Assembly (NCBI RefSeq): GCF_002265265.1
Contig: NZ_NOIF01000020.1
Span: 1-43,185, forward strand
Direction of reading: 5' to 3'
DNA: 43,185 bases
Source: Photobacterium sanguinicancri
GTDB taxonomy: Bacteria; Pseudomonadota; Gammaproteobacteria; Enterobacterales; Vibrionaceae
Of this stretch, positions 20,174 to 24,772 are shown in pieces; position 1 is the first letter of the stretch, and every line of letters starts with the position of its first letter. The notes beneath the pieces were generated by a model that did not search any database, was not told where the DNA came from, and was given only the letters and a program-made list of their open reading frames with translations. A program made the translations under genes and the position numbers.

Positions 20174-21316
20174 TTAGCGGTTGTTTAGTACTGCAAGGTA
20201 AAGGTGGGTTTTGTCTTGTATGTTATTGATATTTAATGAAGTTAATTGTTCTATTTTTTCCATTCGGTATCTGAGCGTATTGCGATGAATATGGAGTTGT
20301 TGGCAGGTTTGAGCTAAATCACAATTTTGGATAAAAAATGTCTTTAAGGTTTTTAGCAGTACACCACGTGGGTCACAGTTTTTTAATTTTTGCAACGGAG
20401 CGCACAATTGCTCGTGTCGCCAAGGATCTTTTTTCAATCCTGAGAGCAACACTGGCAGCATGTAGTCTTGGTAAAACAAGATATTATTATCAGCAATGTC
20501 GGCATCGAGTGTTGCTTGTGCGGTGAGGTAAGATTTTGCCAGCCCTTGCAGAGAGGGGAAGTAGCCGCCTAGTGCAATTTTGATGGTAAAGCTGTTGTCT
20601 TGCGCGACCCGTCTCATTAATTTCTTGGCGCGCAGGAGTTCGGCTTCTTTCGACCAATCATCACCATCGATAGTGATGGGTTTGAGTACCACTACCTCAT
20701 TGAGTGACACCGAGACAATACCGACCAGGTTATCGCGTTCAGGGTGCTCTAATAAATGAACAACTCTTTGTAAATGTTCAAGCGATAGTTGCTGGCCTTT
20801 TGAAGGGAAGACTTTAACGATGGCGGCAATGCGCGGTTGGGATAAGTCCAAATTAAGACGTTCAGCCATGGCGGTTAATTGACTTTCATTGAGTTTACTG
20901 CCATTGACCAACTGCAACACTAACTCTTCACGATGACGTTTATCCCATTGAATTTGTGCCATGAGCGCAGCTTGTTCAACAATAAGCTCAGCGGTCATTT
21001 TGACTAACTCACCGTAATTTCTTACCTCTTCAGGCTTCGCTGAAATACCGATAACGCCAATGACCCGATCATGGAATAAGATAGGAAGGTTGATCCCCGG
21101 TTTTACGCCTTTAAGTTGGTTTGCTGTAGCTTGGTTGATTTCTACAACACGGTTATCGTTGATCGCCAGAATCGCCCCTTCATGACGCTGATTGATGCGA
21201 GATCGATCGCCAGAACCAATAATGCGGCCTTGTTCGTCCATGACATTCACTGAGTAATGAATAATCTTCATGGTGCGCTCAACAATTTGACGAGCAATGG
21301 TGGCATTGAGTTGCAT
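20174..21316 (-). CDS. cdaR: Sugar diacid/glycerate utilisation regulator, CdaR family
   Basis: This transcription factor is related to E. coli CdaR (SdaR), which activates glucarate, galactarate and glycerate genes. The N-terminal sugar-diacid recognition domain covers about residues 1-130, with IIGSGDRSRINQRHEGA and KPGINLPI. A GGDEF-like middle region follows, then a PucR-type C-terminal helix-turn-helix at about 330-358 (CDLAQTCQQLHIHRNTLRYR). The ATG at 21316 (380 residues) begins like E. coli CdaR; an in-frame GTG at 21346 would add ten residues and has no ribosome binding site. It sits upstream of the permease and glycerate kinase on the same strand and is divergent from yacL. Confidence 0.92.
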   Translation of the reverse strand: MQLNATIARQIVERTMKIIHYSVNVMDEQGRIIGSGDRSRINQRHEGAILAINDNRVVEINQATANQLKGVKPGINLPILFHDRVIGVIGISAKPEEVRNYGELVKMTAELIVEQAALMAQIQWDKRHREELVLQLVNGSKLNESQLTAMAERLNLDLSQPRIAAIVKVFPSKGQQLSLEHLQRVVHLLEHPERDNLVGIVSVSLNEVVVLKPITIDGDDWSKEAELLRAKKLMRRVAQDNSFTIKIALGGYFPSLQGLAKSYLTAQATLDADIADNNILFYQDYMLPVLLSGLKKDPWRHEQLCAPLQKLKNCDPRGVLLKTLKTFFIQNCDLAQTCQQLHIHRNTLRYRMEKIEQLTSLNINNIQDKTHLYLAVLNNR

Positions 21317-21424
21317 TCTTGTCTGATTTCCTGAAAATGTGCTCACGACAGTACCAATCTAATAGTGGCGTTGATTGGCGATACAGAAGCCACATTGTAC
21401 GCATGGTTCAAGATGAGGATAGCT

Positions 21425-21793
21425 ATGGATTACGAATTTAAAAAAAATACCTTAGATGGTAGCTATCATGCGGTATTTTCTATGGGTCATGAAGCCCTTG
21501 GCCGCTGGTTAATTGAAGAAGTAGGTAAAGACTTTACCAAAATGGATTCGGTATTGGCGCAAATTGGTGCATTGAAAAATAGTACCCAAGAATGGCGGTT
21601 GATTGGCGATGAGCTAACGTTGAGTCTGCAAGATCATGAAGCGTTGATTCAGGCTAACTTTTTGTTTTCAGAAGATGATGACGAATACGAAGAAGATCTT
21701 CACTTATACGATGAGGAAAGTATGTCGTTATGCGGATTTGAAGATTTCACGCTGGTATTAGAGGCATGGCGAGCGTTTGTGACCCGTTTTTGA
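21425..21793 (+). CDS. yacL: UPF0231 family protein YacL
   Basis: This small acidic cytoplasmic protein has 122 residues (E. coli YacL 120) and unknown function. It starts MDYEF and keeps [14 protein letters not shown] and [14 protein letters not shown], both recognisable from YacL. The start at 21425 is preceded by GAGGA at 21416-21420; in-frame codons upstream to 21365 are not conserved. In E. coli yacL follows acnB directly, whereas here the glycerate module separates them. Confidence 0.92.
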
Positions 21794-21833
21794 TCAACTA
21801 AGGTAAGATCGAGATACCTGCATAGTTTTAGTG

Positions 21834-21866
21834 AAAAAGCCGCACCTTTTTGGTGCGGCTTTTTTT
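21834..21866. terminator. Terminator after yacL; hairpin matches the NtrC site consensus
   Basis: AAAAAGCCGCACC and GGTGCGGCTTTTTTT form a perfect stem with a TTTTT loop, an efficient terminator that works on either strand. The core GCACC-N5-GGTGC also fits the NtrC consensus TGCACC-N5-GGTGCA. It is centred near 21849, roughly 95-100 bases before the start site expected from the sigma-54 promoter of glnK. Confidence 0.93.
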
Positions 21867-21919
21867 ATGTCTGTGGCTGGTGGTTTGTTAAGTGTTTGAA
21901 AGTTAACTGTAAAAAAAGT

Positions 21920-21935
21920 TGGCACGTTGATTGTT
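21920..21935 (+). promoter_or_regulatory. Sigma-54 promoter of glnK-amtB
   Basis: TGGCACG (21920-21926), four bases, then TTGTT (21931-21935) fit the sigma-54 consensus TGGCACG-N4-TTGCA with correct GG to G spacing; the -12 element has GT instead of GC. It lies 47 bases before the glnK start. Together with the NtrC-like site upstream it indicates nitrogen-limitation control. Confidence 0.85.
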
Positions 21936-21981
21936 TATCTAACGTTGTACGCAGCAGCATTCAATGTTTAAGGAGTAAGCA

Positions 21982-22320
21982 ATGAAACTAATTAATGCGA
22001 TTATCAAGCCATTTAAACTTGACGATGTCCGTGAAGCGCTAGCCGATGTAGGTGTTGAGGGGATGACGGTTTCTGAGGTGAAAGGTTTTGGGCGCCAGAA
22101 AGGTCACACCGAATTATACCGGGGCGCAGAGTATCAAGTGGATTTTTTACCCAAGGTTAAGCTTGAAATTGCCACACAGGCTGAAAACTTAGATGCGATT
22201 GTTGAGGCGATAGCGAATGCTGCGCAAACCGGAAAAATCGGTGACGGTAAAATTTTCGTATACGACTTAAATCATGCGGTGCGTATTCGTACCGGTGAAA
22301 CAGACACTGAAGCGCTTTAA
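21982..22320 (+). CDS. glnK: Nitrogen regulatory protein P-II (GlnK)
   Basis: This 112-residue trimeric P-II signal protein senses glutamine and 2-oxoglutarate and controls AmtB and nitrogen regulators. The uridylylation site is Y51 in the T-loop (ELYRGAEYQVDFLPK). The KIGDGKIFV segment near residue 90 is the typical nucleotide/2-oxoglutarate site. It is called GlnK rather than GlnB because amtB follows after 35 bases and the promoter is of the sigma-54 type. The ribosome binding site AAGGAG is strong. Confidence 0.95.
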   Translation: MKLINAIIKPFKLDDVREALADVGVEGMTVSEVKGFGRQKGHTELYRGAEYQVDFLPKVKLEIATQAENLDAIVEAIANAAQTGKIGDGKIFVYDLNHAVRIRTGETDTEAL

Positions 22321-22355
22321 ATAGTTAGGTTAACGGTGATTAGGGGATATAAACC

Positions 22356-23585
22356 ATGGAATTATCAACCACAGTAACTGAGTTGCGTTATGCGCTCGAT
22401 ACTTTTTTCTTTCTAATGTCAGGGGCATTAGTCATGTGGATGGCAGCAGGGTTTGCCATGTTAGAAGCGGGTTTGGTGCGCTCTAAAAATACCACTGAAA
22501 TTTTAACCAAAAATATTTGTTTATATGCCATCGCCTGTACGACTTACTTGGTTGTTGGTTACAACATTATGTATGTCGACAACGGTGAAGGAGGCTGGTT
22601 ACCTTCTATCGGGATGCTGATTGGTAGCCAAGCAGAAGGTGCTGATCACTCATTAGAATCCGACTTCTTCTTCCAGGTTGTGTTTGTTGCAACAGCGATG
22701 TCAGTTGTTTCTGGTGCAGTAGCAGAGCGTATGAAATTATGGTCGTTCCTCATTTTCTCAATCATTTTGACGGCCTTTATTTATCCAATGGAAGGATACT
22801 GGACATGGGGTGGAGGTTTCTTATCAGAAGCCGGTTTTAGTGACTTCGCAGGCTCAGGTATTGTGCATATGGCTGGCGCATCAGCGGCCTTAGCTGGAGT
22901 GCTTTTGCTGGGAGCTCGTAAAGGTAAATACGGTAAAAATGGTGAAATTTATCCGATTCCGGGTTCAAATATGCCGTTGGCAACATTAGGGACTTTTATT
23001 CTGTGGTTTGGTTGGTTTGGCTTTAATGGCGGCTCACAACTAATGGTTTCTGATTTTGAAAACGCAACTGCAGTGGGACAAATCTTCTTAAATACCAATG
23101 CCGCCGCCGCCGCTGGTGCCATTGCAGCACTAGCAGTGTGTAAAACAACGTGGGGTAAAGCGGATTTAACTATGGTGTTGAATGGTGCATTAGCGGGCTT
23201 GGTTGCGATTACTGCAGATCCATTGTCACCATCACCGCTTGCAGCGGTAGCGATTGGTGTTGCGGCTGGTGCATTGGTTGTCTTTAGTATTATTGGCCTA
23301 GACAAAGTGAAGATTGATGATCCAGTTGGTGCTATTTCAGTCCACGGTGTCTGTGGCTTCTTTGGCCTGATGGTTGTGCCATTTAGTAATGCCGATGCCT
23401 CGTTTGGTGCGCAGCTATTAGGTGCTGTCGTTATCTTTGGCTGGGTCTTTGGTGCGAGCTTAGCGGTATGGGCTGTGCTAAAAGCGACCATGGGGATTCG
23501 TGTGACCGAAGAAGAAGAGCTTGAAGGGATGGATACTCATGACTGTGGTGTTGATGCATACCCTGAGTTTGTTAGCGTGAAGTAA
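22356..23585 (+). CDS. amtB: Ammonium transporter AmtB
   Basis: This 409-residue inner-membrane ammonium channel has about 11 membrane helices. Conserved pore residues are D163 and H171 in FSDFAGSGIVHMAGA and the second histidine H330 in ISVHGVCG. The C-terminal tail MGIRV..EEELEGMDTHDCG is the region that contacts GlnK. No cleavable signal peptide is evident, unlike E. coli AmtB. It is co-transcribed with glnK from the sigma-54 promoter, and GlnK binding should shut the pore when nitrogen is plentiful. Confidence 0.95.
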   Translation: MELSTTVTELRYALDTFFFLMSGALVMWMAAGFAMLEAGLVRSKNTTEILTKNICLYAIACTTYLVVGYNIMYVDNGEGGWLPSIGMLIGSQAEGADHSLESDFFFQVVFVATAMSVVSGAVAERMKLWSFLIFSIILTAFIYPMEGYWTWGGGFLSEAGFSDFAGSGIVHMAGASAALAGVLLLGARKGKYGKNGEIYPIPGSNMPLATLGTFILWFGWFGFNGGSQLMVSDFENATAVGQIFLNTNAAAAAGAIAALAVCKTTWGKADLTMVLNGALAGLVAITADPLSPSPLAAVAIGVAAGALVVFSIIGLDKVKIDDPVGAISVHGVCGFFGLMVVPFSNADASFGAQLLGAVVIFGWVFGASLAVWAVLKATMGIRVTEEEELEGMDTHDCGVDAYPEFVSVK

Positions 23586-23624
23586 GTTAAGAAACTAATA
23601 ACATATATTCAGTTCACACCTTTT

Positions 23625-23657
23625 AAAAGCACTGCCAACTTGGCGGTGCTTTTTTTG
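23625..23657 (+). terminator. Terminator after amtB
   Basis: The stem GCACTGCCA/TGGCGGTGC (one T-G pair) with an ACT loop is followed by a run of seven T residues, 40-70 bases after the amtB stop. Confidence 0.9.
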
Positions 23658-23678
23658 TGTTTAATTGTTTCTGCTGAG

Positions 23679-23706
23679 TTGTGTTACTTAAGTGTTGCAG
23701 TATAAT
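23679..23706 (+). promoter_or_regulatory. Probable sigma-70 promoter of fbpABC
   Basis: TATAAT at 23701-23706 is a consensus -10 box, with TTGTGT at 23679-23684 as the -35 box at 16-base spacing. The Fur box lies immediately downstream, over the expected start of transcription. Confidence 0.65.
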
Positions 23707-23715
23707 TAATCGCAT

Positions 23716-23730
23716 TGATAACTGTTATCA
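23716..23730. promoter_or_regulatory. Fur box upstream of fbpA
   Basis: TGATAACTGTTATCA is a perfect 7-1-7 palindrome close to the Fur consensus TGATAATNATTATCA. It sits nine bases after the -10 box, where Fe-loaded Fur would block transcription. This predicts iron repression of the whole operon. Confidence 0.85.
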
Positions 23731-23758
23731 TTTTACTTTGCGTTAAAGGGATGAATAG

Positions 23759-24772
23759 ATGAAAAAGCTGTTAGCTTCGGCAATTTTCTGTGCTTTGGCA
23801 GCACCTCAGGTAGCGACTGCTGCTGAAGAAGTAAACGTATACTCTTACCGTCAACCTTTCCTCGTTGAGCCTATGTTCAACGAATTTACTAAAGAAACAG
23901 GCATTAAAGTAAACGTTAAGTTTGCAAAGAAAGGCTTATCAGAAAAGCTGCAGCAAGAAGGTGAATACAGCCCTGCAGACGTAATCTTAACAACAGATAT
24001 TAGCCGTCTTGTTGAATTGGTAAATAAAGATCTTGTTCAACCTGTTGATAGCAAAGTAATTGAAAGTAACGTACCTGCTCAATACCGTGATAACGATGAT
24101 GAGTGGTTTGCTTTAACCCTGCGCGCTCGTAATGTGTATTCATCACGCGATCGTGTTGGTCGTTTACCGGCTGATTTCGATTATGCAGATCTTGCTGATC
24201 CTGAGTGGAAAGGAAAAATTTGTACCCGTTCTGGTAAGCACCCTTACAACGTTTCTTTGGTGTCTTCGATGATTGCTCATCACGGTGAAGCTGAAGCAAA
24301 AGAGTGGCTAGAAGGCCTAAAAGCAAACCTTGCGCGTAAGCCACAAGGTAATGACCGAGCGCAAGTTAAAGCCGTTAAAGAAGGCTTATGTGATATCGCG
24401 ATTGGTAACAGCTACTACTTAGGTAAAATGGTTAACGACGAAAAGCAAAAGTCGTGGGCTGAAGCGGTATACATCAACTTCCCAGGTCAAAAAGCGAGTG
24501 GCACCCACGTTAACGTGAGTGGCATGGCAATGGCTAAGTACGCACCAAACAAAGAAAGCGCACAGAAGCTGATGGAATTCCTAACGGATGACAAAGCGCA
24601 GCAAATGTACGCAGAAGTAAACTACGAATACCCAGTAAAAGAGGGCGTTAAGCGCTCTGAGCTAGTGGCATCGTGGGGTGACTTCGATGCGGATACACTT
24701 TCATTAGAGAAAGTGGCTGAATACCACAATGCAGCGATTAAACTACTGGATGAAGTGAAGTTTGATCTGTAA
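23759..24772 (+). CDS. fbpA: Ferric iron ABC transporter, periplasmic binding protein
   Basis: This 337-residue FbpA/FutA-type protein delivers Fe(III) to the FbpBC importer. Residues 1-21 form a signal peptide (cleavage after ATA), and mature EEVNVYSYRQ is typical of the family. The iron-binding tyrosine pair is in IGNSYYLGKM (Y219, Y220). A Fur box and promoter lie just upstream and AAAGGG precedes the ATG by eight bases. It is the first gene of fbpABC; a hairpin-terminator in the gap to fbpB probably keeps the binding protein more abundant than the permease. Confidence 0.94.
   Translation: MKKLLASAIFCALAAPQVATAAEEVNVYSYRQPFLVEPMFNEFTKETGIKVNVKFAKKGLSEKLQQEGEYSPADVILTTDISRLVELVNKDLVQPVDSKVIESNVPAQYRDNDDEWFALTLRARNVYSSRDRVGRLPADFDYADLADPEWKGKICTRSGKHPYNVSLVSSMIAHHGEAEAKEWLEGLKANLARKPQGNDRAQVKAVKEGLCDIAIGNSYYLGKMVNDEKQKSWAEAVYINFPGQKASGTHVNVSGMAMAKYAPNKESAQKLMEFLTDDKAQQMYAEVNYEYPVKEGVKRSELVASWGDFDADTLSLEKVAEYHNAAIKLLDEVKFDL

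Follow-up and report, generated by a model that had tools for sequence, protein, structure and literature searches.

A putative NtrC enhancer site of glnK-amtB within the predicted intrinsic terminator of yacL in Photobacterium sanguinicancri and its relatives

That NtrC controls amtB and glnBK is already known; in a comparative study, the core of the NtrC regulon comprises glnA, amtB, glnBK, ntrB, and ntrC (PMC5343134). In Gammaproteobacteria, the enhancers serving NtrC and sigma-54 at nitrogen genes such as glnA and glnK-amtB read GCACY-N5-RGTGC and lie ~80 to 100 bp before TGGCAC. The palindrome between yacL and glnK described here resembles these enhancers in letters, distance, and the genes it precedes, but differs in that the same site doubles as the predicted core of the intrinsic terminator of the upstream gene. 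The Escherichia coli dyad preceding glnL, by our reading, stands apart from the closest terminator-like hairpin, unlike the fusion seen here. A second relevant system is provided by Neisseria and the Pasteurellaceae, where DNA uptake sequences serve as terminators; as in our case, a short motif under selection at the DNA level has been co-opted as a terminator stem (PMC1852404). Unlike the uptake signals, which are genome wide, the present motif is a single activator site at one promoter with near-fixed spacing. The hairpin shares an A-tract, a G+C-rich stem, and a T-tract with canonical intrinsic terminators but departs from them, including those following amtB at the same loci, in that its inner stem letters and 5-base spacer are conserved. 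A narrow search of open-access full text found no earlier description of an overlap between an NtrC site and a terminator. Within that search, what appears to be new is that an activator's predicted enhancer site forms the stem of a terminator and that this arrangement persists across several genera of one family.

The window analyzed is a 43,185-nucleotide stretch of P. sanguinicancri contig NZ_NOIF01000020.1, and its relevant features are collected in Table 1. The yacL stop and the glnK start are separated by a gap of 188 bp. The yacL product also falls in the NCBIfam PRK05248 group (best E value, 2.2e-61; 205.4 bits against a cut-off of 206), and the glnK product matches PRK10858 and PRK10665, both under the respective cut-offs. 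AmtB exceeds the cut-off of the marine subtype model TIGR03644, while scoring far under that of the E. coli AmtB model. The same genome encodes NtrC (772.5 bits, above cut-off) and RpoN (524.6 bits), and a search for NtrC-related proteins yielded 73 HMM matches, one of them above the cut-off.

Table 1. Positions of genes and predicted regulatory features at the yacL-glnK-amtB locus, numbered from the first letter of the window
Feature	Positions	Strand	Basis and remarks
yacL (UPF0231), upstream gene, reads toward glnK	21425..21793	+	Pfam PF06062, 139.6 bits
Weak conserved NtrC-like site, TGCATAGTTTTAGTGAA	21819..21835	+	Sequence; 2-base overlap with the terminator A-tract
Predicted intrinsic terminator: A-tract, G+C-rich stem, 5-base loop, T7	21833..21866	+	Folding, -23.0 kcal/mol
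Strong putative NtrC site, CGCACCTTTTTGGTGCG, upper part of the terminator stem-loop	21841..21857	+	24.6 bits, glnA-derived matrix
Sigma-54 type promoter, TGGCACGTTGATTGT	21920..21934	+	Sequence; -24 element full, -12 GT not GC
glnK, PII nitrogen regulator	21982..22320	+	PF00543, 115.2 bits
amtB, ammonium transporter, marine subtype	22356..23585	+	TIGR03644, 678.8 bits (cut-off, 514); PF00909
Terminator after amtB (control)	23625..23653	+	Terminator scan; inner stem letters differ among relatives

The original prediction placed a terminator hairpin after yacL at 21834-21866, and it is present at those coordinates. The sequence reads AAAAAGCCGCACC-TTTTT-GGTGCGGCTTTTTTT. Its A-tract (21834-21838) is followed by a 5' arm extending to 21846 and ending in GCACC (21842-21846), the TTTTT loop (21847-21851), a 3' arm that begins at 21852 with GGTGC (21852-21856), and a T-tract (21860-21866) directly after the stem. 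The hairpin begins 40 bases past the yacL stop. Its tabulated energy includes the A/U extension and comes from a hairpin scan with its own thresholds; the surrounding 111-nt stretch folds at -37 kcal/mol (z, -4.63), a value equalled by 1 of 200 shuffles. A simple terminator scan of 21300-24000 listed five terminator-like sites, the yacL hairpin not among them, which we would attribute to pairing of the A- and T-tracts, leaving too few T residues behind the stem. Two other roles for the structure were considered and rejected: a known regulatory RNA, as the three Rfam matches within 21300-22400 all lie well under their gathering scores, and an attenuator of glnK, as the expected sigma-54 start sits 3' of the hairpin.

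The core of the putative NtrC site, CGCACC-N5-GGTGCG, lies 79 bp upstream of TGGCAC in the sigma-54 promoter of glnK-amtB. It had been proposed to fit TGCACC-N5-GGTGCA, and 10 of the 12 named positions agree, the two exceptions being the outermost ones, where C and G replace T and A, a substitution shared with many relatives. For an independent scoring, a matrix was built from strong sites upstream of glnA in the genus, all glnK sequences being kept out; it comprises 16 sites because the glnA promoter pattern used in this analysis missed 6 of 22 regions (a different pattern finds those six, and 21 of 22 overall). By this matrix, the glnK core ranks first among the 17-mers on both strands of the window, the next scoring 12.4 bits, and the glnK site tops its own locus in 94 of 101 family loci. 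The TTTTT loop does not have the A often seen after GCACC at glnA. Across the 5.47-Mb genome, GCACC-N5-GGTGC occurs at 10 places, against roughly 5 expected by chance from simple arithmetic with equal base frequencies and none for a reversed-pattern control. One of the 10 is the glnK site, and another lies upstream of glnA (C17:30983), where the site reads GCACCAAGATGGTGC and the glnA match starts at C17:31190. On the same contig, a TGCACCAACATAGTGCA dyad is found just upstream of a probable ntrB (L279, 921-937), so named because the gene precedes ntrC; a T6 run follows a few bases on, and the dyad is of the site type found upstream of E. coli glnL.

Sigma-54 promoters follow the -24/-12 consensus GG-N10-GC. 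At glnK the -24 TGGCAC is complete, the deviating GT of the -12 element occupies 21933-21934, and an equivalent element is found in 98 of the 101 family loci. Among these 98, the -12 position is T, G, or A rather than C in 97, unlike the promoters in the 22 genus glnA regions that were read, which end in GC; perhaps the non-C residue makes for a deliberately weak promoter at glnK. The palindrome is centered at 21849 and the start would be expected near 21946, giving ~97 bases, within the 95 to 100 originally proposed. The weak NtrC-like site starts 22 bp upstream of the strong one (start to start), and 88 of the 95 family loci having the strong site carry a weak counterpart at an upstream offset of 21 or 22 bp. 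The resulting two-site geometry, ~79 and ~101 bp from the -24 element, matches that of glnA (~79 and ~100 bp): 12 of 16 glnA regions in which the promoter was found have sites at 99-101 and 78-80 bp from TGGCA, two (L115 and L126) have the ~100-bp site only, and two (L116 and L121) have sites at 111 and 90 bp. Several relatives with long yacL-glnK gaps, among L079-L106 (genus codes g3, g7, and g9), show in the alignment one more TGGTGCA block before the weak site, a block that may be a third NtrC site.

To place the locus in the family, one glnK locus was examined per genome, GlnK being present in all 101 genomes drawn. Cut-offs were set by us at -7.5 kcal/mol for the hairpin, six T residues, and a motif score of 26 (25 for order-level loci). 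The NtrC-like motif reaches threshold in 95 of 101 tested intervals, compared with 16 of 5,235 control windows of equal size from the same loci, which are mostly coding. The site lies 76-80 bp from the sigma-54 element in 92 of the 95 loci and 97-99 bp from it in the other three. Six loci have no site at threshold: a contig end truncates L005, whose remainder starts inside such a site, and the site is damaged in L081 and L095 and absent from L102, L110, and L111. Assignment of the core to NtrC, though made from motif and position, is well supported because of the matrix rank, the shared glnA geometry, and the conservation of motif and spacing across the family.

A predicted terminator overlies the site in 64 of the 101 loci, 63 of them with a hairpin of -12.9 kcal/mol or stronger plus a T-tract and one, L083, marginal at -7.9 kcal/mol. 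In a further 31 loci the site is present but has no terminator over it; the spacing is 76-80 bp in 29 of these. The two groups allow conservation of letters to be separated from conservation of pairing. The GCA/TGC letters are invariant throughout the 57 distinct terminator versions and the 31 nonterminator loci, an invariance that is partly by construction, as the site was picked in each locus by motif score, and that is mitigated by the rarity of the motif in the control windows and by the narrow spacing. The following pair is C-G with three exceptions, L015, L020, and L021, which read GCATC; the C is thus kept in 61 of 64 terminator loci. Relatives keeping the stem but losing the GCACC/GGTGC letters, which would have spoken against a shared function, number none among the 64 terminator loci, the comparison being weakened by the choice of sites by motif score. 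The outer pairs behave differently, with pairs 6 to 8 paired in 96-100% of the terminator set, by several pair types, versus 39-52% of the nonterminator set, where observed pairing is 0.44 versus a shuffle mean of 0.39. When changes were counted on the glnK-amtB tree, with L083 and the six siteless loci excluded, core pairs 2 to 4 did not change at all. The pair type switched 9 times at outer pair 6, 9 times at pair 7, and 12 times at pair 8; among 63 rows, one was unpaired at pair 6 and none at pairs 7 and 8. Pairing stood at 0.994 as observed, whereas after shuffling of the 3' letters it averaged 0.777 and reached 0.839 at most.

Pairing in the terminator set is partly by construction, since the set was defined by a hairpin test; this is mitigated by a sorting on T-richness, which ignores pairing. 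All three outer pairs are found in 51 of the 56 loci with at least six T in 8, and in 16 of the 39 with fewer T residues. Of these 16, 11 have a terminator and five T, and 5 (L061, L099, L100, L101, and L105) lack a terminator, so that pairing alone is no mark of a terminator. Terminator state changes at least 7 times over 100 loci as scored and 4 times over the 94 with a clear state, on a quick tree with some long rows and 25 of 98 inner branches open; as the tree is unrooted, gain and loss of the terminator are indistinguishable.

These data bear on the simplest reading of the 31 site-only loci, namely, that the palindrome is an enhancer and nothing else, with the hairpin and T-tract incidental and yacL ended otherwise, e.g., by Rho. 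The existence of such loci, 27 of them having no other terminator upstream of the site by the hairpin scan, and the omission of the hairpin by the simple terminator scan both agree with it. The strong hairpins with T-tracts in 63 loci, the covariation of the outer pairs on the tree, and the presence of all three outer pairs in nearly all T-rich loci do not, and we regard this explanation as improbable.

The converse is that the palindrome is a terminator only, its GCACC/GGTGC letters being accidental in a G+C-rich stem and the likeness to NtrC sites due to chance. Terminators of the form GCACY-N5-RGTGC plus T5 do exist elsewhere: each of 30 genus genomes searched gave matches, glnK terminators included, among the matches listed, and the P. 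sanguinicancri genome has a second place, at C252:5230. When 30 such genus terminators were fetched, one per genome, 12 proved to be at glnK and 18 elsewhere. All 12 at glnK have a TGGCA element 77-79 bp on, in contrast to 0 of the 18 others, among which L158 has a TGGTA-type match at 87; the genes flanking the two inspected, L155 and L170, differ. We take the same-core terminators away from glnK as background. The terminators following amtB provide a control at the same loci, and these lose the letters: over the same 62 loci, inner-stem identity is 0.31 for the amtB terminators, which may be too low as these hairpins are not in register, versus 0.90 for the glnK site, and within the genus (n = 25) the values are 0.45 and 0.93. 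Since, in addition, 31 relatives keep the letters with no terminator there, and a matrix derived from glnA ranks the core first in a geometry common to glnA, chance resemblance is a very unlikely account.

Beyond the family, 20 order-level loci from other families were inspected. Fifteen have a site 78-82 bp from the promoter element, 13 of these with no terminator at the site; three have it at 102-114 bp, one has no site at the threshold of 25, and one has no recognizable promoter element. A terminator at the site is predicted in only two of the 20, L184 (-8.7 kcal/mol) and L188 (-12.8 kcal/mol). By reading of the translation, L188 has a divergent yacL upstream, for which tblastn gave no match; tblastn did match yacL in L183, L191, and L194, each without a terminator at the site. 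Among 80 named loci, many of which are distant or probably paralogous PII genes, element and site occur together in 14. The site lies at 70-111 bp, with no terminator, in loci of Shewanella (two), Colwellia (three), and Arsukibacterium (one), and five of six Photobacterium/Vibrio loci have the terminator at the site, the exception being L199 (Vibrio superstes). In E. coli K-12, a hairpin with a T-run is predicted after mdlB (-14.4 kcal/mol; L197, 153-180, corresponding to NC_000913 472452-472479), and it encloses the NtrC-like dyad upstream of glnK, which is 69 bp from the promoter. Since sites in other families lie at a similar spacing and mostly lack a terminator, the enhancer is probably the older element, with the terminator built or kept around it. 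That some regulator other than NtrC, with a similar dyad, binds the palindrome is hardly credible: although the genome has many NtrC-related proteins, the same motif precedes glnA and the probable ntrB, as NtrC would predict, and E. coli NtrC chose the mdlB-glnK interval in genomic SELEX (PMC8743547).

Presence of the terminator was compared with the distance from the yacL stop to the site. Where a terminator lies at the site, the yacL stop is 26-143 bp from it (median, 49; n = 63), the 143 belonging to the marginal L083; for the 28 loci lacking the terminator in which yacL was located, the distance is 38-58 bp in six and 112-180 bp in 22. This suggests that short yacL-glnK gaps favor fusion of terminator and enhancer. 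On the tree, the comparison comes down to 3 to 4 independent pairs with no significance, and the trend is not independent of ancestry. A replacement terminator upstream of the site is found in 4 of the 31 site-only loci, L086 and L099 (both at -13.0 kcal/mol), L098 (-8.8 kcal/mol), and L104 (-8.6 kcal/mol); L081 and L111, which have no site at threshold, also have a terminator upstream of the site position. Six loci, L024, L056, L062, L063, L092, and L094, combine a short gap with no terminator at the site or elsewhere by scan. With so few independent pairs and replacement terminators, an economy of space remains a suggestion: sharing of bases might save room in the 188-bp gap and exclude yacL polymerases from the glnK promoter.

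The original prediction held that one inverted repeat could act as a terminator in RNA and an NtrC site in DNA, and the letters, spacing, and pairing seen across relatives support it on comparative grounds. We consider it likely that the palindrome is both a promoter-proximal NtrC enhancer of glnK-amtB and the intrinsic terminator of yacL, built from the same bases. The strong site and the weak site upstream of it would form a two-site enhancer for the sigma-54 promoter, and in this lineage the outer G+C pairs, A-tract, and T-tract would turn the bases of the NtrC site into a yacL terminator. As RNA, the repeat is predicted from its structure to fold and end yacL transcripts short of the glnK promoter. 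As DNA, its motif, geometry, and conservation point to docking of phosphorylated NtrC at nitrogen shortage, which would turn on glnK-amtB. The benefit would be insulation of the glnK promoter from yacL polymerases within the compact gap. Mutual interference, raised conditionally in the original prediction, is also conceivable, because the footprint of a polymerase halted at the T-tract would cover the NtrC site. We hold doubtful a putative switch in which NtrC, as a roadblock, would sharpen yacL termination just at glnK induction and the halted polymerase would briefly evict or exclude NtrC; if it operates, yacL transcription would tune the nitrogen response.

The locus offers a comparative case in which one short sequence would be under two separable selections, for the letters read by an activator and for pairing in an RNA hairpin, with relatives in nature that appear to carry both functions or the enhancer only. 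Annotations of terminators and of binding sites may mask one another at such places, and interference between enhancer and termination becomes directly testable by small stem swaps. For these bacteria, the arrangement implies that a compact intergenic gap can combine an insulator and an enhancer.
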